Origin: an uncultured bacterium
GTDB lineage: Bacteria; Cyanobacteriota; Vampirovibrionia; Gastranaerophilales; Gastranaerophilaceae
Assembly: GCA_949283255.1 (NCBI GenBank)
Contig: CASDRS010000012.1
Span: forward strand, 1 to 64,000
Direction of reading: 5' to 3'
Length of the DNA stretch: 64,000 bases
The notes beneath the pieces are model-generated. The model saw only the letters and a list, made by a program, of their open reading frames with translations. It did not search any database and was not told the origin of the DNA. How positions within the stretch are numbered: the stretch's first letter is position 1; each line of letters begins with the position of its first letter. Made by a program: the position numbers and the translations under genes. Of this stretch, positions 4,861-26,805 are shown in pieces.

Positions 4861-5974
4861 TTCCCATAGCTGCGACATACGCTGTTGACCAGCAGTTTTG
4901 CAAATTGTATCCGCCGCAAAATCCGTCTACATTTATTACTTCTCCGCAAAAATATACCCCTTTTTCAAGTTTTGATTCCATAGTTTTAGGGTTTATTTCG
5001 TTTAAATCTACACCTCCTGAAGTTACGACTTCTCCGCCTTTTGCAGGGCTGATAACTGTTATTGTAAAATTATGCAGTTTATTTAAGATTTCATCTCTTG
5101 TTTTGCCGTCAATCAGGTGGCATTTTTTATCAGGGTTTTGCAAAATGTATTCTGCAAGATTTTTTGGGATAAATTCGGCAAGAAGATTTTTAATAGTTTT
5201 ATGTGGATTTTTGTTCATCAACTCTTGCAGATTTATTTCTTCGCAAAGGTCTAGGTTTAATTTGTATGGGAAATTTTCTCTTGCTTTTATTGAGGAAATT
5301 TTGTATATTAAAGGTCCTGTAACTCCTTCGTGTGTAAACAAAATATCATCCTGAAAACCTTCCGCTCTTACATTTCTTACACTTATTCCGGCTAGAGATT
5401 TTAGATTTTCTGCTGTTTTTAGTGCCGTGAGTGCAGGTTTTGGGGCTATGATATTGTGTCCGAGGAATTTGGCGCAGTCATATCCGGCATGGCCTCCTAG
5501 TGCAATAACAATTTTATCAAATTTATAACTCCCGTTATCTGTTACAATTGTAAGCGGGTTTTTATTTATCCTTAGGGCTCTTTCTTTTTTAAATGTTGTT
5601 TTCTTTAATGCATTTAAAAGTTTTTCTCTAACTTCTTTTGCACTGTTCGAAGTTGGAAAAATTCTTAAATCATCTTGAGTATAAGTTTCGATACCAAGTC
5701 GGTTAAAGATGTCGATAGTGTCTGCAGTTGAAAATCTTGAAAAAATTGAATACAAAAACTTTTCTCCACGCGGATAATTTTTTGCAAGTTCTCTAAAATC
5801 ATATTCAGCATGTGCAAGATTACATCTTCCGCCGCCTGTTGGAAGGATTGTTCTTAGCGGAGAGCCGAAGTCGAATAGTGTAACATCAAATTTGTCCTGA
5901 AGAAAGTATGCACAAAAGCACCCTGCAGGTCCTGCTCCAATTATTCCTATCTTATATGTCGACTCTTGTTCCAT
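4838..5974 (-). CDS. NAD(P)/FAD-dependent oxidoreductase, HI0933/YhiN/BaiN family
   Basis: The N-terminus has the dinucleotide-binding motif GIIGAGPAGCFCAY. This is followed by the family-specific LPTGGGRCNLAHAE and a C-terminal motif ending CGEVINVDGFCGGYNLQ. The family is widespread flavoproteins of mostly unknown substrate; BaiN acts on bile-acid intermediates in a clostridial gut species, but the family is much broader and that role cannot be assumed. At 378 residues it is slightly short but complete. It lies directly downstream of folK and overlaps it by 23 bases; its 3' end overlaps ftsQ on the other strand. Confidence 0.85.
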   Translation of the reverse strand: MEQESTYKIGIIGAGPAGCFCAYFLQDKFDVTLFDFGSPLRTILPTGGGRCNLAHAEYDFRELAKNYPRGEKFLYSIFSRFSTADTIDIFNRLGIETYTQDDLRIFPTSNSAKEVREKLLNALKKTTFKKERALRINKNPLTIVTDNGSYKFDKIVIALGGHAGYDCAKFLGHNIIAPKPALTALKTAENLKSLAGISVRNVRAEGFQDDILFTHEGVTGPLIYKISSIKARENFPYKLNLDLCEEINLQELMNKNPHKTIKNLLAEFIPKNLAEYILQNPDKKCHLIDGKTRDEILNKLHNFTITVISPAKGGEVVTSGGVDLNEINPKTMESKLEKGVYFCGEVINVDGFCGGYNLQNCWSTAYVAAMGITQASGN

Positions 5975-6458
5975 ATAAAAATACCATCTCAGGATTTTCT
6001 AAATCATTATGTAGTTCGCTTATTGCCTTATGAAGAACAGGATGTTCAAAATCAGGGATTAACTCCAAAAGAGGAACTAGAGTAAATGCTCTTAAGTGTA
6101 AATATTTGTGCGGAATTGTGAGAGTTTCATCTTGTATGATTTCTTTTCCATAAAACAATATATCTATATCTATTGTTCTGTCAGAATATCCTGCCGTTTC
6201 TTTTGGGGTTCTGCCAAGTTGTTTTTCAATCCTTTGGCATTCTGTCAAAAGCTCGTGTGCACTTAGTGATGTTTTAATTTCGATGACAGCATTTACAAAC
6301 CAAGTGTCTGTTGCCATATTCCATGGCTCAGTTTCGTAAAAAGCTGAAGTTCTCACAATAGTAATATTGTCAGTCAAATTAAGCAGGCTTGTTGCCTGTT
6401 GGATATAGCCTATTCTATCACCCTGATTTGAACCTAAACTTAAGTAAGCTATTGTCAT
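5952..6458 (-). CDS. folK: 2-amino-4-hydroxy-6-hydroxymethyldihydropteridine pyrophosphokinase
   Basis: FolK transfers pyrophosphate from ATP to the pterin alcohol in folate synthesis. Motifs seen are LSLGSNQGDR at the N-terminus, YETEPW, LGRTPKET, and the signature RTIDIDILFYG, followed by IPHKYLHLRAF. The length (168) is typical. No folB or folP is adjacent. The start codon has no Shine-Dalgarno sequence, and a strong promoter sits so close that transcription should begin at the ATG itself. Confidence 0.95.
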   Translation of the reverse strand: MTIAYLSLGSNQGDRIGYIQQATSLLNLTDNITIVRTSAFYETEPWNMATDTWFVNAVIEIKTSLSAHELLTECQRIEKQLGRTPKETAGYSDRTIDIDILFYGKEIIQDETLTIPHKYLHLRAFTLVPLLELIPDFEHPVLHKAISELHNDLENPEMVFLYGTRVDI

Positions 6459-6464
6459 AACAGT

Positions 6465-6493
6465 ATTTTATTAATTTTTTACATATGTGTCAA
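6465..6493 (-). promoter_or_regulatory. folK promoter with leaderless geometry
   Basis: On the minus strand a perfect TTGACA (6488-6493), a 17-base spacer and TAAAAT (6465-6470) precede the folK ATG by six bases, which places the expected transcription start on the A of the start codon. Confidence 0.7.
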
Positions 6494-6567
6494 TAAATAA
6501 TTGTGATTATTTTTAAGATTGTTAGCAAAATTTATTATTTACTAATTTTATTTGTTTGGAGGTATAT

Positions 6568-6954
6568 ATGAAAATTAATTATGAACCTATATCAGACAAA
6601 TTTTGTACAACAATAAAGCATTCTAAAAATTCAATCTGCTATGTGAAAAGAAATCCTGAAACAAATAAAAGACTTTCTCAATTGACAGTTTATAATTCCG
6701 GTTCTAAAAAAGGTCAATATATTTATCATTCATACGAAAACAATGGAGATATTATTACATTAAAATATGACCCTGAAATATCAGCAAGATCCCTGTTAAT
6801 CAAAAAACGAGGTGAGCAAGAAACTTTGCTTAGTACTCTGTATAGCGGAATAAAGGGCTTATTCGAATGGTACAAAGATATATATAACCCTGCAGGGAAG
6901 AGGGTTAAACAAGTTATCTGTACTTCCGGAAAAATTTATGAGCACGAATTTTAA
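6568..6954 (+). CDS. Hypothetical protein, 128 residues
   Basis: I do not recognise this family. The start at ATG 6568 is set by a strong GGAGG at 6558-6562; an upstream in-frame TTG at 6556 would overlap that site. There is no signal peptide or membrane helix. The sequence is rich in Lys, Tyr and Ser, with a central beta-rich look (repeated short hydrophobic strands such as QLTVYNSG, DIITLKYD). Its 3' end overlaps the convergent TPR-NHL gene by four bases. Confidence 0.75.
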   Translation: MKINYEPISDKFCTTIKHSKNSICYVKRNPETNKRLSQLTVYNSGSKKGQYIYHSYENNGDIITLKYDPEISARSLLIKKRGEQETLLSTLYSGIKGLFEWYKDIYNPAGKRVKQVICTSGKIYEHEF

Positions 6955-7808
6955 AGCTTGTATCTTATAACAGAATTACCGCCCTGCGATGAGATAAACA
7001 ATAATCCGCCATCCAGATGCAGGCAATATGGCTTGATTACGTGTCCAAGAACCTGAGTAATTACGCCTGATGGAGTAATTTTTACGATATTATCGATATT
7101 GTAATTTGCTACATAAAGATTTCCGCTGTCATCTGCAACCATGCCCATAGGTCCGTTTAATTTCGGACTTTTTACGTAAATCTTTCGCTCACCTGCAGGC
7201 GTAATTTTGGTAATGGAATTATTGCTGAAGCTTGCAACATATACATTGCCGTTTTTATCTGTTGTAACTCCTGTCGGGCTGATTATATTCCCGTAGCTGC
7301 CGCTTGTTTGCGGAATCTTTGGGCGTTCAGCTTCCAATTTTGCTTTTTGCTCAGCCTGTATTGTTTGAAGGTCTGTATTCATTGCAAGTGCAAGCTGTTG
7401 AGCTTTCGTTATTACAGGACTGGTTGGCGGAATAATAGATAAATACTGCTTTGCATTATCAGTTTGTCCGAGTCTGAAACTTAGATTGGCAGCATTATAA
7501 ACAGCTTCGTAGTCAGTCGGTTTTCTGACCATTATTTGTTTGAAAATTCCGAGAGCTTCCGCATCTTGATCCATTTGTTCATATACGACACCAAGATTGT
7601 AATATGCATCTATATAATTGGCATCAAGAGCGATAGCCTGCTGAAATGCACCGACAGCTTCAGTATATTGACCCTGTCTGTAAAAATCTACACCGCGATT
7701 GTACATTAATTTTGCATCATTATTTATTTCAGCCACAGCTATAGTGCTTGTGGCCAAAATAATAATGAATGCTGTCAATAAAAGTTTTTTTACCATATTA
7801 AATTTCAC
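6951..7808 (-). CDS. Secreted TPR protein with C-terminal NHL repeats
   Basis: A signal peptide (about residues 5-27, hydrophobic core LLLTAFIIILATSTIAVA) leads into two to three TPR units, such as YNRGVDFYRQGQYTEAVGAF and AYYNLGVVYEQMDQDAEAL. A short linker is followed by about three NHL beta-propeller blades of the form PTGVTTDKNGNVYVASF...ITKI. Both modules bind proteins or other ligands; no enzyme is visible. Three blades are too few for a closed propeller, so it may multimerise or be incomplete. The start is GTG 7808 or ATG 7796. It overlaps the end of malQ, suggesting co-transcription. Confidence 0.8.
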   Translation of the reverse strand: MKFNMVKKLLLTAFIIILATSTIAVAEINNDAKLMYNRGVDFYRQGQYTEAVGAFQQAIALDANYIDAYYNLGVVYEQMDQDAEALGIFKQIMVRKPTDYEAVYNAANLSFRLGQTDNAKQYLSIIPPTSPVITKAQQLALAMNTDLQTIQAEQKAKLEAERPKIPQTSGSYGNIISPTGVTTDKNGNVYVASFSNNSITKITPAGERKIYVKSPKLNGPMGMVADDSGNLYVANYNIDNIVKITPSGVITQVLGHVIKPYCLHLDGGLLFISSQGGNSVIRYKL

Positions 7809-9660
7809 TTAACTCTTCGATTAACTTATGATTTTTGTCAGCAAAATCTTTGCCTCTTGCTATTATAGCAAGTTTCAAGATATTTGCAAGATTGATACAG
7901 TGGAGAGATGTGAAATTGTCCGGTAGTCTAAGACTCCAGTTTGCATCTCCTGCTGTTCCAGGTCTGTTGTATACATCATAAATGTTGAAGTAGTCTGTGA
8001 AGAATATTTGAATATTTTCTGCTTTTGATGCAAATATTTCAACTAACTTTGTTTGAGCCAAGAATTCTGCATTCTTTGTTAATTCAACAATTAATGCATC
8101 TTTATCTGACCAGTCAGGGAAATCTAAATCTTCAACAAGATTTTTTACATGCAAATATCCCTCATGTGTATTTACAACTGAATCTGCCCACATCTTTATC
8201 GGCTCATTATCGTGTGTACCAACCATTGCCCAGCATTTTTCGTCTATATTTTTGCAACGATAAGGGTCAAGTGGTTTTTCAGGTTCAGTGAACTGAGTCA
8301 GCTTCATACCCTGAAGTCCGTATTCTTTCATTACGGCTGCTACAGGATTTGTTAAAGTTCCCAAATCTTCGCAGACAATTGAATCTTTATCCAAGCCTTC
8401 TTCTTTTGCAGCTGCGATAACGATTTTTTCAATTAAACGTCCGTATAATTTTATCTGTTTTTTAGAAAGTGTTTTTACACGTTTTTCTTTGTCCGCCTCA
8501 AGCTCCATGTCCAAGTCATCCATTGTTGCAATTGCAAATTTCTTTAAGAACGGATGTTCAGGAGAAGAATACAATCTTCCTGCACCTTCTTCGATTTTAG
8601 GTTTCTTACCTGCTTTGTATACCCATGGATCAATCAAGCCTACAATGTGGTCAATTCTTACACCACCAGGGTTTTCTTTGAACATTTTTTTGAATAAGTT
8701 CTTCATCAAAATGCCGCCTTCATCTAATGAGCCATCTGCTTTGTATAATTTTTCAGGGTTCATTACAGGAAATCCCCAAGCTTGACCGTCTTTTGAAAAA
8801 TAATCAGGAGGACATCCAAGTCTCCATCCATCAAGGAATAATGATTGATATGCCCAACAATCTCTATCTGAGAATGCTACCTGACGGTCTGCTATCATTT
8901 TTATTCCTTTTTTCTTTGCATATTCAGATGTCTTTTGGTTTTGCTTTGCTAGGACAAACTGTACAAATTTGTAAAAATCAATTTCATCTGCATATTTTTT
9001 AGAGATTTCTTCAATTCTTTTGCCATATTCAAGTCCTTCTTCGATTGATTTCGGATTGAATAAGTTTTTGTCCATTTCAGAGTTCCAAAGTGGCCAATAA
9101 TCGTTGCCGTGCTCTAGAGAAAGAGCTTCGTACAAGCTGTCTTTGTCAAGCCAAGAATCGTTTTCTCTTTTGTAGATTTCAAATTCTTTCATTAACTTTT
9201 TATCATTTCTTGCTTTAAAGTTATTCCATGCTTCTAACAAAGCTTCATCTTGTTTTTTATAAATATATGAGTATGCAGTTTTGTTTGTATCTTTATTAGG
9301 GTTATTATTTACAATGTCATTGAAGGTTTCAACAGACAATATATTTAACCATTCTTTTTCAGTAAGTTGTTTAAGGTCTATAAATAGCGGGTTGCCGGAA
9401 AATATTGTCCCTGTATATGGTGAAGAATCACATCCTTTAGTTTTGCCTGCAGGTCCAAGCTGAATTGAATTGAAAATTCCGCTTGCCCAATCTATTACTT
9501 CTTTCCCACCGTTGGAGTTAATGGTACCAAAGCCGGTGTTTTCTCCAGCTGCTGCAGGAAAGCTTCCTCCGTGTATAATAAAAGCAAAATTCTTTTTCCC
9601 TAACGCTTTTAATGCTTTTTCAATAGTTTTTGTCGCATTTTTTTCTAATGTGCAAACCAT
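7798..9660 (-). CDS. malQ: 4-alpha-glucanotransferase (amylomaltase, GH77)
   Basis: MalQ moves alpha-1,4-glucan chains between acceptors in glycogen or maltodextrin metabolism. The N-terminus has the GH77 pattern SPYTGTIFSGNPLFIDL. The catalytic residues are in GGVRIDHIVG (Asp nucleophile), IVCEDLGT (Glu acid/base) and the GTHDNEP Asp. At 620 residues it is longer than many bacterial amylomaltases (about 500), with the extra length mainly in Lys-rich insertions. The ATG at 9660 follows AAGGAG. It is first in a two-gene unit with the TPR-NHL protein. Confidence 0.94.
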   Translation of the reverse strand: MVCTLEKNATKTIEKALKALGKKNFAFIIHGGSFPAAAGENTGFGTINSNGGKEVIDWASGIFNSIQLGPAGKTKGCDSSPYTGTIFSGNPLFIDLKQLTEKEWLNILSVETFNDIVNNNPNKDTNKTAYSYIYKKQDEALLEAWNNFKARNDKKLMKEFEIYKRENDSWLDKDSLYEALSLEHGNDYWPLWNSEMDKNLFNPKSIEEGLEYGKRIEEISKKYADEIDFYKFVQFVLAKQNQKTSEYAKKKGIKMIADRQVAFSDRDCWAYQSLFLDGWRLGCPPDYFSKDGQAWGFPVMNPEKLYKADGSLDEGGILMKNLFKKMFKENPGGVRIDHIVGLIDPWVYKAGKKPKIEEGAGRLYSSPEHPFLKKFAIATMDDLDMELEADKEKRVKTLSKKQIKLYGRLIEKIVIAAAKEEGLDKDSIVCEDLGTLTNPVAAVMKEYGLQGMKLTQFTEPEKPLDPYRCKNIDEKCWAMVGTHDNEPIKMWADSVVNTHEGYLHVKNLVEDLDFPDWSDKDALIVELTKNAEFLAQTKLVEIFASKAENIQIFFTDYFNIYDVYNRPGTAGDANWSLRLPDNFTSLHCINLANILKLAIIARGKDFADKNHKLIEELSEI

Positions 9661-21928: not shown

Positions 21929-22160
21929 AAAAAATACTCCAAAAATTTCTATATAAAAATTGTAGTTGTTTTTATTGCTCAAATAATCCCACCTAGGTCT
22001 AAGTTGATGTAGTAATATCTGGTAATTTTTTTTGATTTTGTAATGTAAACATTTGTAACACATAAAAATATTATTCTTAAAGTTTTACCCTTAAAAAGCC
22101 GTAAACCAACATGTACGACTAGGAAATATTACCAAAACTGAAAGGAATAAGTATACAACA

Positions 22161-23792
22161 ATGGGTTTAGCGGCATCACAAGCTAGATTATTGACTATCA
22201 CAGCAAGGAAATCTGACTGTGAATATCAATCTATGGCATATTCTCATCAGAAGATTGCCCTCTCCCGTGATATGAATATCGTATCTGCGGAATATCAAGA
22301 TGCCTTGGCTCAAACTAAGTTAGTTTATGATTTTTACGGAACAGGAGATACAAGTACTCAACTATCTTACGGTTTATTAATGCAACCTTCAAAACTAAAC
22401 GATTATATGCCGTCTCCAATAACAGATACTGCCGGCAGAGTTGTTTTAGATGCAAAGTTGGCAGCAGCCGCTGCAGCAGCAGGGATTCCTCAAGAAGGTT
22501 TGGGATGTACTCCATCTTCTGATATAAGAAATAAATTTATTCAGGGTCTTATTGATAACGGTATTTTAACCGCAGCTGTCGGAAACGGAATAAAAAATAT
22601 TCAATATAACCCGCAAGCAGGTTTAGGTTCAATAGACACAATAGATTATGTGGAAAAAACAGTTTCTTATGATGATTTTGTAAATAATTATTTGTGTAAT
22701 ATCGAATTTGATTTTAATGATTTGATTGCTAATACAGGTGGTTCTGACCTTAACTTGTACAATTACTCAAATAATACTGAAGTAATAGATCCGGGTTCTG
22801 AGGGTGCAGTATTAACATTGTCTCAAATTTTGAATGGTGACTATGCTTTAATTGGTTGGTTATGGGATAATGATAACTGGGTATCAGGATTTGGTTATGC
22901 CGGTGCCGTTGATAAAGTTGGTTCATCAAGTTATTGGGATGTGTTATTTGAATCATTGGCATCATACGTAGATACAAATGATGCTTATACCCTTGCAGCT
23001 TTGGAATACGCTAAGAGAGAAACTTTAAAGAAAGTTGAATGTCTTGGTGTTGGTACTGATAAAGATGCCAATAAATTTGATATTTCAAACTCTGCTTATG
23101 AGTGGAAGAGCAGTCACTCAGGACAAGATGATGTATATAGTGAAGTAAGAGACAGAACGGATGATTATGTCGGCTTCGTTTATTGTCATAACAAGAAGGG
23201 CTGGAAAGATGATTATAACCAAGGTTATGGTATCGATATCAGTAGTATGACTAAAGCTTACTTTACATATTTTGCACAGTATATGGAAGGTTTAGCTACA
23301 TCCAACTATAAAATAAACAACGAAAAGAGTAACTGTAATTTCGTTGATGATAACTTCGCGTTTACGATTATTGAAGGTGCAGATACTTCAGGTGACAGCG
23401 TATTGATGGCAAGTTTCTATGATATGTTGTTCAACCAAATTGCGACAAAAGGTTGGGTACAAAATGAAAAGGTTAATGACCCTGAATATTTGCAGACAAT
23501 GCTTCAAAATGGTACAATGTATATTTCAACAATAGCTGATGATAACTATTATTATCAAGGTAATTATGCTACAAATTCTTACATCAAGGAAATAACTGAT
23601 GAAGAAGGTATTGCACAAGCTGAAGCTAAATATAATCGAGAAAAAGAAAAGATTAATGCAAAAGAAAATATTCTTGATATGAAGATGAAGAATCTTGATA
23701 CAGAAATCTCAGCACTTACTACAGAATACGATACGGTTAAGTCAGTAATTTCTAAGAATATTGAAAAGGCCTTTAAGCGTTATAACGCTTAA
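22161..23792 (+). CDS. Large protein with terminal helices and variable centre (flagellin-like layout), unknown function
   Basis: The 543-residue product has no signal peptide. Residues 1-55 (starting MGLAASQARLLTITARKSD) and the last 60 or so (ending SVISKNIEKAFKRYNA) are predicted helical with heptad-like spacing. Between them lies a large Asp/Asn/Tyr-rich, beta-like region with a poly-Ala patch near 98-108. Terminal helices around a variable core are the layout of flagellin and hook-type proteins, which self-assemble and are exported without cleaved signals. No flagellar gene is in the window. The resemblance is of organisation only. It is monocistronic, preceded by AAGGAATAAG. Confidence 0.8.
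   Translation: MGLAASQARLLTITARKSDCEYQSMAYSHQKIALSRDMNIVSAEYQDALAQTKLVYDFYGTGDTSTQLSYGLLMQPSKLNDYMPSPITDTAGRVVLDAKLAAAAAAAGIPQEGLGCTPSSDIRNKFIQGLIDNGILTAAVGNGIKNIQYNPQAGLGSIDTIDYVEKTVSYDDFVNNYLCNIEFDFNDLIANTGGSDLNLYNYSNNTEVIDPGSEGAVLTLSQILNGDYALIGWLWDNDNWVSGFGYAGAVDKVGSSSYWDVLFESLASYVDTNDAYTLAALEYAKRETLKKVECLGVGTDKDANKFDISNSAYEWKSSHSGQDDVYSEVRDRTDDYVGFVYCHNKKGWKDDYNQGYGIDISSMTKAYFTYFAQYMEGLATSNYKINNEKSNCNFVDDNFAFTIIEGADTSGDSVLMASFYDMLFNQIATKGWVQNEKVNDPEYLQTMLQNGTMYISTIADDNYYYQGNYATNSYIKEITDEEGIAQAEAKYNREKEKINAKENILDMKMKNLDTEISALTTEYDTVKSVISKNIEKAFKRYNA
23773..23792 (+). repeat. Perfect 20-bp palindrome ending on the stop codon
   Basis: TTAAGCGTTATAACGCTTAA is a perfect inverted repeat whose last three bases are the stop codon of the 543-residue protein. 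No T tract follows, so it is not a standard terminator. Confidence 0.6.
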
Positions 23793-26283: not shown

Positions 26284-26805
26284 TTAAGATAGGTTAATGC
26301 TTGCGTCAGCAATCATACCTGACTGAAATGCTCTTAATGAAGCTTTTGAATCAGATACCATGTGTTCACCTGCAAGTTCACGCGCTAATGTTGCATTTGA
26401 GGTTCCTTTCATAAGGTCTCTTAACTTGTTTTGTGCATTTGCGATGTTACTTTCAAGCAGTGAACTGGTGTTTCCTGCGGCATATTCGTTTTGTAATTTT
26501 TCTAATTCGGATTCAGCAGCTTCCTGTGCGGCAACTGCTTCTTGCTCAGCTTTGCGTGCCAATTCGTATGTTTTTTCGCTTACTTCTTTCTTCTTGTCAG
26601 CTTCTTTGGATCTTGCCCATATACTGTCTCGAATACTAAGCGGTACTGATTTGAAATCCGATGATTTTGCAAACGAAAATAAAGCGGTTGACTTCATCGC
26701 TTTTACGTATGAGGTGAGATATTTTTGATAATCTCCGCCGTATTGCGCTTTGAGTTCCGGATTTTTTTCAAATTGTGAAAGTGTTACAAATTGTACTTCA
26801 GCCAT
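26284..26805 (-). CDS. Hypothetical coiled-coil protein, 173 residues
   Basis: I do not recognise the family. There is no signal peptide or membrane helix. Residues about 70-130 are a strongly charged, Ala/Glu/Lys-rich coiled coil; the flanks are mixed, beginning MAEVQFVTLSQFEKNPELKA. AAGGGCTTGCT precedes the ATG. It lies between ompH-like and rpsO genes on the same strand with gaps over 100 bases, so it is probably transcribed alone. Confidence 0.7.
   Translation of the reverse strand: MAEVQFVTLSQFEKNPELKAQYGGDYQKYLTSYVKAMKSTALFSFAKSSDFKSVPLSIRDSIWARSKEADKKKEVSEKTYELARKAEQEAVAAQEAAESELEKLQNEYAAGNTSSLLESNIANAQNKLRDLMKGTSNATLARELAGEHMVSDSKASLRAFQSGMIADASINLS

Follow-up and report, generated by a model that had tools for sequence, protein, structure and literature searches.

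A paralogous protein family of gut Gastranaerophilales: candidate substrates of a probable second flagellar-type apparatus without motility

Introduction

Gastranaerophilales, inhabitants of animal and human guts, have received little study. In a 64,000-nucleotide stretch of DNA from one of them (hereafter the window), the gene for a 543-residue protein, p01, lies among rarA, a gene for a solute-binding protein and pyrF, which we take, by their appearance, to be housekeeping genes. The question that this locus raises is what a protein laid out like a flagellin, with a long helix at either end and a large insert between them, is doing in such surroundings. A first-pass annotation had ventured a lineage-specific, self-assembling surface filament exported by a non-Sec route, and this reading is partly supported by our results, with the support lying outside the window.

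The flagellar genes of Gastranaerophilales have been read, in the parts of three papers that treat them (PMC3787301, PMC4040986, PMC5877343), as a flagellum that is either present or partly lost. Within the published literature that we covered, preprints being outside its scope, we found no second or non-flagellar type III system tied to Gastranaerophilales, Vampirovibrionia or Melainabacteria, including in the portions consulted of PMC7018530, PMC7203096, PMC11319675, PMC9868349, PMC5877343 and PMC4451040. Our analysis separates a true flagellum, which judging by flagellin occurs in 58 of the 146 genomes sampled from the taxonomic family, from a second apparatus, X, whose FlhA class is also found in flagellin-negative genomes, and which published work appears to have taken for an incomplete flagellum. 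We lean towards p01 being an axial, or tip- or filament-like, substrate of X, a non-motile flagellar-type apparatus, and consider it likely that X exports p01 in some form.

Results and discussion

A signal-less protein with long terminal helices

The p01 coding sequence (22161..23792, + strand; 543 aa, ATG start) is an open reading frame carrying both motifs of the family described below, and inspection places a ribosome-binding site, AAAGGA, about 14 bases 5' of the start codon (22141..22146, +). An AlphaFold2 model and the motifs together delimit an N-terminal helix at residues 2-49 (22164..22307, +), with the conserved N-motif MGxAASQAR, and a C-terminal helix at residues 481-542 (23601..23786, +), with the C-motif LDTExxALxTEYDxVKxVIxKNxExxFKxF; the model and alignments set between them an inserted centre of mixed alpha/beta character (residues 50-480; 22308..23600, +). 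The N-terminal helix is a possible export or assembly segment. The ORF call and the model confirm the architecture first described, of long terminal helices around an acidic centre, and the composition of that centre is indeed acidic and rich in Asn and Tyr (59 Asp plus Glu vs 27 Lys plus Arg over 429 residues; 8.4% Asn, 7.9% Tyr). By eye, no Sec signal is present at the start, MGLAASQARLLTITARK, in agreement with the protein having been called signal-less.

The heptad-like spacing attributed to both ends fares less well: the hydrophobic moment of the C-terminal helix exceeds that of shuffled sequences at 100 degrees (p 0.02; 0.16 at 102.9 degrees), whereas that of the N-terminal helix does not (p 0.86 and 0.59, respectively). 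We dropped strong heptads as an argument for p01, hydrophobic-moment support being weak and confined to the C-terminal helix. That the layout goes beyond chance follows instead from the recurrence of both ends at ten loci of the same genome and in 145 of 146 genomes of the taxonomic family. Elsewhere in the window, 2.5 kb from p01, a 173-aa coiled-coil-like protein is encoded at 26284-26805 (-); among the 80 named loci of p01 relatives, L068 and L069 alone hold a relative of it, also 2.5 kb past the p01 relative.

A paralogous family with conserved ends and diverse centres

The genome from which the window derives (1.82 Mb in 22 contigs, 95% complete) yielded ten loci when searched with p01, p01 itself included, and these are scattered. 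The ten paralogues range from 272 to 763 aa and share an N-terminal stretch, MG(L/M)(A/S)A(S/G)QA(R/K), and a C-terminal stretch close to LDTE..AL.TEYD.VK.VI.KN.E..FK.F, with centres that differ; a further, probable member of 110 aa (L030 10233-10565) emerged from a local search, weakly, at E 0.003 against a profile of the C-terminal end. With a profile built from the ten (A1), matches were obtained in 145 out of a sample of 146 genomes of the taxonomic family, among them all 126 good ones, the sole negative genome being 85% complete; copy numbers per genome in this sample are lower bounds, as nine candidates at most were scored in each. At class level A1 matches 70 of 146 genomes, 52 belonging to the same family (f1) and 18 to families f3, f8 and f9. 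The ten copies and this distribution bear out the proposal of a lineage-specific paralogous family, which is a large and hitherto unnamed one of non-photosynthetic gut cyanobacteria. The 80 named loci represent the best 80 of 483 confirmed stretches; most are labelled Candidatus Gastranaerophilales, Melainabacteria or "uncultured bacterium", and the few that are labelled otherwise (e.g. Brachyspira, Fusobacterium, Clostridiaceae) we take to be mislabelled assemblies.

In the sister families the members are short. Re-searching 11 of the 18 positive genomes outside f1 gave matched open frames of 110-147 aa, except one of 226, and pairing N- and C-terminal matches by position gave three to seven short proteins per genome. 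Twenty-five short forms from sister-family loci, out of 27 distinct proteins from which two near-duplicates were left out, align from their start without a gap, all at 109 aa, with a mean column identity of 75%; in each, a short turn joins the N-motif helix to the C-motif helix and nothing else is present. In the large f1 members an extra domain is inserted at the hairpin turn, whilst short members also occur in three named f1 loci (110 to 116 aa from the likely start). We infer that the 109-aa two-helix protein is ancestral, and that the large inserts would have been added and diversified later in the f1 lineage.

The insert of p01 itself is kept in its relatives, with the whole sequence, centre included, retained in 41 of 58 alignment rows (A4) at 39-68% identity; among the ten paralogues, by contrast, the centres are dissimilar, as would be expected of proteins with distinct functions. 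Together with the scattering of the genes and the GLUG motifs of one member, this would fit soluble effectors or adhesins secreted through X, whose terminal helices would serve as an export or chaperone handle with no filament being formed. The conserved N- and C-terminal ends and the 109-aa members consisting of helices only are better suited to axial subunits, and we regard effectors or adhesins as rather unlikely. GLUG motifs are typical of extracellular proteins, and two of them lie in the centre of paralogue p08 (676 aa; L027 6532-8562, +); they are equally an argument for the axial-substrate reading.

Predicted structure and the search for known relatives

The p01 model, built with 58 relatives, has a mean pLDDT of 87 and a pTM of 0.54, and in it the helices at 2-49 and 481-542, on either side of the mixed alpha/beta centre, are predicted to lie against each other as an antiparallel pair, much as those of flagellin do. 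In a VIA structure comparison the flagellar filaments 9n59 (Z 9.1, rmsd 3.2, 106 residues), 7sn4 (Z 9.0, rmsd 2.2, 105 residues) and 7sqd (Z 8.8, rmsd 2.3, 104 residues) and the FliD cap 9gnz (Z 8.6, rmsd 3.5, 116 residues) stand near the top of the list, each match using both ends of p01. This likeness is not specific, since PrgA (Z 9.1) and the ATP-synthase gamma subunit (Z 8.9) tie with the filaments, and for long helices a Z below about 13, such as the values near 9 of the filament matches, may reflect a common arrangement. Foldseek returned nothing below E 0.001 for the p01 model.

A short member of 116 aa from locus L071 (pLDDT 75, pTM 0.57; helices 2-49 and 64-113) is modelled as a generic helical hairpin that reaches Z >= 8 with 395 of 738 chains, many of them unrelated, and which is therefore not discriminating. 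Bacterial flagellin is absent from the 50 matches listed for it, Foldseek found none below E 0.001, and its structural matches include prefoldin, ESCRT-III/PspA, EsxA/EsxB and LXG-associated hairpins. Could the family then consist of WXG100- or LXG-like substrates of a type VII secretion system? A hairpin of about 100 aa, present in several copies and lacking a signal peptide, would fit, as would the EsxA/EsxB and LXG-associated matches of the short form. On the other side, there is no WXG100 Pfam match for p01, nor among the matches listed (25 of 57 families) for the short forms, inspection finds no WxG at their hairpin turn, and the inserts sit at that turn and are not C-terminal fusions; we judge type VII substrates very improbable.

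Sequence comparisons place p01 in no known family: searches of Pfam, NCBIfam and PHROGs gave either nothing or sub-threshold matches alone, and a PDB sequence search gave nothing usable. For the short forms, we attribute the Pfam matches to coiled-coil chance, and those of the PDB sequence search are coiled coils, the best being a designed one (E 0.0003). We rejected p01 as a member of the flagellin family, there being no flagellin match in Pfam or NCBIfam. The same two collections hold no rod or hook match for p01, and Flg_bb_rod and Flg_bbr_C, specifically, gave no Pfam match. Profile methods agree: hhalign of the 109-aa profile against the flagellins of ten relatives stays below 1% probability, and profile-profile comparison of the short form shows no relation to FliE, nor to the FlgB, FlgC, FlgF/G-like and FlgE-like proteins of its own and related genomes. 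What stands of the flagellin-like description is thus the layout, conserved terminal helices with an insert between them, and not homology by sequence or profile; this lack of a detectable relation to known axial proteins counts against the axial-substrate reading.

Genes of a probable second flagellar-type apparatus

The genome encodes FliE, FliF, FliH, FlhA, FliO, FliP, FliQ and FliR, a FliM/N-like protein with two FliMN_C stretches, FlgC, FlgF/G-like proteins and a FlgE/F/G-like (hereafter FlgE-like) protein, as well as FlgB-like and FliJ-like proteins that fall below cut-off (that of Pfam for the former). An E. coli FlhB query had no match in about 298 kb of the genome, a sample chosen around the family and type III genes, and neither FlhB nor FliI of X was located within it, a point against the axial-substrate reading; both are named among shared Melainabacteria genes in section 36 of PMC3787301. 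At the position of FliG stands a 362-aa protein with no match. A second, 328-aa relative of this protein occurs in genome G005 (L199 1621-2607), and in genome G167 three ORFs between fliF and fliH (L188 5775-8086) are alike by eye.

Flagellin_N, MotA_N and FlgI have no match in this genome, 95% complete as it is, or in five genomes of the same genus. Among the 146 genomes of the taxonomic family, flagellin is found in 58, MotA_N in 56 and FlgI in 54, and every MotA_N-positive and every FlgI-positive genome belongs to the flagellin-positive set. FlhA, on the other hand, is present in 145 of the 146 (in good genomes, 126/126 vs 48/126 for flagellin) and falls into two score classes: a flagellar class of 847-885 bits, listed for 57 genomes, which are 57 of the 58 with flagellin, and an X class of at most 736 bits, listed for flagellin-negative genomes including this one. 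At least 37 of the 57 hold the X class beside the flagellar class. The FlhA of the genome studied here scores 706.9 bits against an NCBIfam FlhA cut-off of 772.1, and 587.5 bits as SctV, also below cut-off (692.25).

A midpoint-rooted tree of 22 FlhA sequences separates flagellar FlhA, including that of E. coli (100/100), from side X (100/100), although E. coli sits on a long branch and long-branch joins may be false. Side X splits in turn into X1, with f1, f3, f8 and f9 (100/100), and a second part with one sequence of f4, one of f5 and two of f6 (100/99). The FlhA classes and tree, and the confinement of MotA_N and FlgI to flagellin-positive genomes, lead us to regard X as a system in its own right that accompanies the flagellum, and not as the flagellum's wreck; lacking MotA and the P-ring, X would not be a rotating flagellum. 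Functionless remnants of a decaying flagellum would be in keeping with the incomplete flagellar sets described for several Gastranaerophilales in the relevant parts of PMC4040986, PMC3787301 and PMC5877343. However, FlhA is present in 145 of 146 genomes, with the X class beside the flagellar class in at least 37 flagellated ones; FlhA-X forms a branch of its own; and the frames listed are open, with no stops. We give decay the least credence of all the explanations considered.

Co-occurrence and gene neighbourhood

Across the class, all 70 A1-positive genomes have a match to the FlhA family, while A1 is found in none of the 52 FlhA-negative genomes (70/70 vs 0/52), bearing in mind that many of the 70 are close relatives. 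In one of them, G045, the best FlhA-family match is far below full length (E 2.8e-48); among the 18 positives outside f1, full-length X-class FlhA is listed for 17, and the 18th genome is 56% complete. Conversely, A1 detects no member in 24 FlhA-positive genomes of f4, f5 and f6, among them some whose FlhA falls on side X of the tree, which weighs against the axial-substrate reading.

The remark that no flagellar or type III genes lie nearby holds for the window, where type III protein queries from the same genome match no ORF. It does not hold further afield, since the genome encodes such genes, and in some relatives they lie near the same gene. The p01 relative is divergent from fliM-O-P-Q-R in L078, L079, L080, L087, L088 and L115, with 85-209 bp between the ORF ends; in L086, the stretch from fliF to flhA begins 4.0 kb from it; and in L135 and L137 fliR is 7.4 kb away. 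Two points on this count argue against an axial substrate: 71 of the 80 loci show no X gene within the flank covered, and the six loci with adjacency, belonging as they do to related genomes, amount to few events.

A sigma-28-type promoter motif shared by the family

The sigma-28 consensus is TAAA-N15-GCCGATAA. A motif scan finds a putative sigma-28 (FliA)-type promoter of p01 at 22078..22105 (+), 83 bp before the ATG, reading TAAAGTTT-N12-GCCGTAAA (TAAAG-N15-GCCG); the family promoter resembles the consensus and is one base longer. All ten members in the genome have TAAA(G/T)-N15-(G/T)(C/T)CG upstream with one spacing, six as exact TAAAG-N15-GCCG and four with one mismatch, at 52 to 84 bp from the start (131 bp in one case). 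Within the ~298-kb sample the exact motif occurs at nine sites, six of them at family members; in the window it is seen twice against 0.25 expected, and the loose motif seven times against 4.8.

The motif was defined on these ten members. In the loci of other genomes, the loose motif with spacer 15 lies within 150 bp upstream of 63 of 86 members vs 8 of 782 controls, which are the remaining genes there (Fisher p 6e-67), and the exact form 37 members vs 3 controls. Other spacers from 11 to 19 give 0 or 1 among members, but 6 at spacer 14, and 1 to 8 among controls; the promoter is kept in 50 of 68 members once similar upstreams are removed, and base-shuffled upstreams of members give 0.3 matches on average. 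By type, it is found in 44/53 p01/p02-like, 5/5 p05-like and 6/8 p10-like members, and is rarer in the mixed remainder (8/20 vs 55/66 in the three recognised types). In the three sister families it precedes 2 of 27 short members, at spacer 14; this and the lower frequency in the mixed remainder tell against the axial-substrate reading.

The flagellins of relatives have the motif in 7 of 26 cases, also at spacer 14. The family's spacer-15 site is thus more than a copy of the flagellin promoter, which again tells against an axial role, and the spacer-14 flagellin promoters may be read by another factor or in another setting. A FliA/WhiG-family sigma factor is encoded in the genome (L149 5855-6766; TIGR02479, 238 bits against a cut-off of 189.6), 2.8 kb from the rod genes, and we infer that this FliA-type factor reads the TAAAG-N15-GCCG promoter. 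Sigma-28 regulons also include secreted non-structural proteins, a further point against an axial role. With a flagellar-type type III export apparatus, a sigma factor of this type and a matching promoter before p01, the non-Sec route that had been postulated is at hand in the same genome.

An alternative is that the members stay in the cytoplasm, as coiled-coil or cytoskeletal proteins, and have no more than control by the sigma factor in common with X. In its favour, export of the family is a deduction, and the short form is a generic hairpin with prefoldin and ESCRT-III/PspA among its matches. Against it stand the way in which the family tracks FlhA, the type of promoter and the adjacency to export genes in some relatives, and we find this explanation quite improbable.

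Other genes in the sequences covered carry the exact promoter. One, for a 122-aa protein (L151 15277-15645, +), has it 61 bp upstream; its product could be an anti-sigma factor or something else belonging to the regulon. Those three control genes in which the exact form was seen (L072 2551-4380, 609 aa; L080 13160-13657, 165 aa; L110 7552-8190, 212 aa) may likewise be part of it.

A possible organelle and its place among known systems

The case for p01 as an axial substrate of X is cumulative, and is built on the ten-member family, its two-helix forms in sister families, its co-occurrence with FlhA, the separate branch of FlhA-X, the apparatus genes of a genome without flagellin, MotA_N or FlgI matches, the promoter, the adjacency to fliM-fliR in 6 of 80 loci and the co-alignment with filaments and FliD; what stands against it, beyond the points given above, is that the outer membrane would have to be crossed without a P-ring. 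We can picture the following sequence of events. Once the basal part is built, the FliA/WhiG-type sigma factor would turn on the family genes at their common TAAAG-N15-GCCG promoter; the products would leave the cytoplasm without a Sec signal via FlhA-X/FlhB/FliPQR, energised by FliH/I/J; their terminal helices would pair as an antiparallel coiled coil and stack onto a rod and hook of FlgB, FlgC, FlgF/G and FlgE-like proteins; and the domain inserted at the hairpin turn would be shown outside the cell. Export by X, assembly and surface display are all deductions from genomes and models.

How do the family and X compare with what is already described? Flagellin, FliD and hook-associated proteins are, like the p01 family, signal-less, with conserved terminal helices, a variable insert, several paralogues and a sigma-28-type promoter, and the p01 termini co-align, though not specifically, with 9n59, 7sn4, 7sqd and 9gnz. 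The family differs in showing no sequence or profile similarity to them, in residing in a genome with no flagellin match, and in its promoter spacer of 15, vs 14 in those flagellins of relatives that have the motif. X, for its part, shares with the flagellum FliE, FliF, FliH, FlhA, FliOPQR, the FliM/N-like, FlgB-like, FlgC, FlgF/G-like, FlgE-like and FliJ-like proteins and the FliA-type sigma factor, and departs from it in the genome lacking MotA_N, FlgI and flagellin matches and in an FlhA-X that lies on another branch and below the NCBIfam cut-off.

Non-flagellar type III systems (injectisomes, including the early branch of Myxococcales in the part of PMC3459982 that concerns it) likewise combine flagellar-type export with absence of motility. 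Unlike them, X retains FliO together with rod, hook-like and FliM/N-like genes of the flagellum, and its FlhA has a higher score against the FlhA family than against SctV (706.9 vs 587.5 bits, both below cut-off). Buchnera offers another parallel: according to the part of PMC8109811 that describes them, its flagellum basal bodies and flagellar export genes come with no recognisable secreted proteins. X differs in having a candidate substrate family with a common promoter.

A wider proposal, which we put forward tentatively and hold to be somewhat less than evenly balanced, is that gut cyanobacteria and their sister families possess a flagellar-type surface organelle of a third kind, distinct from both flagellum and injectisome. 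Its X basal body would be non-rotary, with an FlhA lineage of its own and a sigma-28-type regulon, and would be topped by a multi-subunit filament or tip of the new family, in which the ancestral unit is the 109-aa hairpin and each Gastranaerophilales genome displays about ten different domains; what has been reported since 2013 as "partial flagella" would be this same organelle. If our reading of X and its candidate substrates is right, the flagellar export machine has been put to yet another use, this time with substrates that can be named; the old question of what filament-less flagellum-like systems secrete would become directly testable; and gut commensals would gain an overlooked surface or secretion system.

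Two further observations concern possible accessory proteins. On contig C9 of the same genome, a 492-aa protein (L023 10916-12394, -) matches the C-domain of FlhA over its last 340 residues (142 bits), without the membrane part, and matches to the FlhA C-domain only are listed for many f1 genomes; X may have in it a second protein for docking substrates, or a chaperone. Next to the family member of L024, at 5967-8736 (-), lie genes for three proteins without Pfam match (257, 498 and 165 aa, the first with CPHGLPLGACPICNG), which are candidates for chaperones or regulators; the cluster is conserved in 10 of the 80 named loci.
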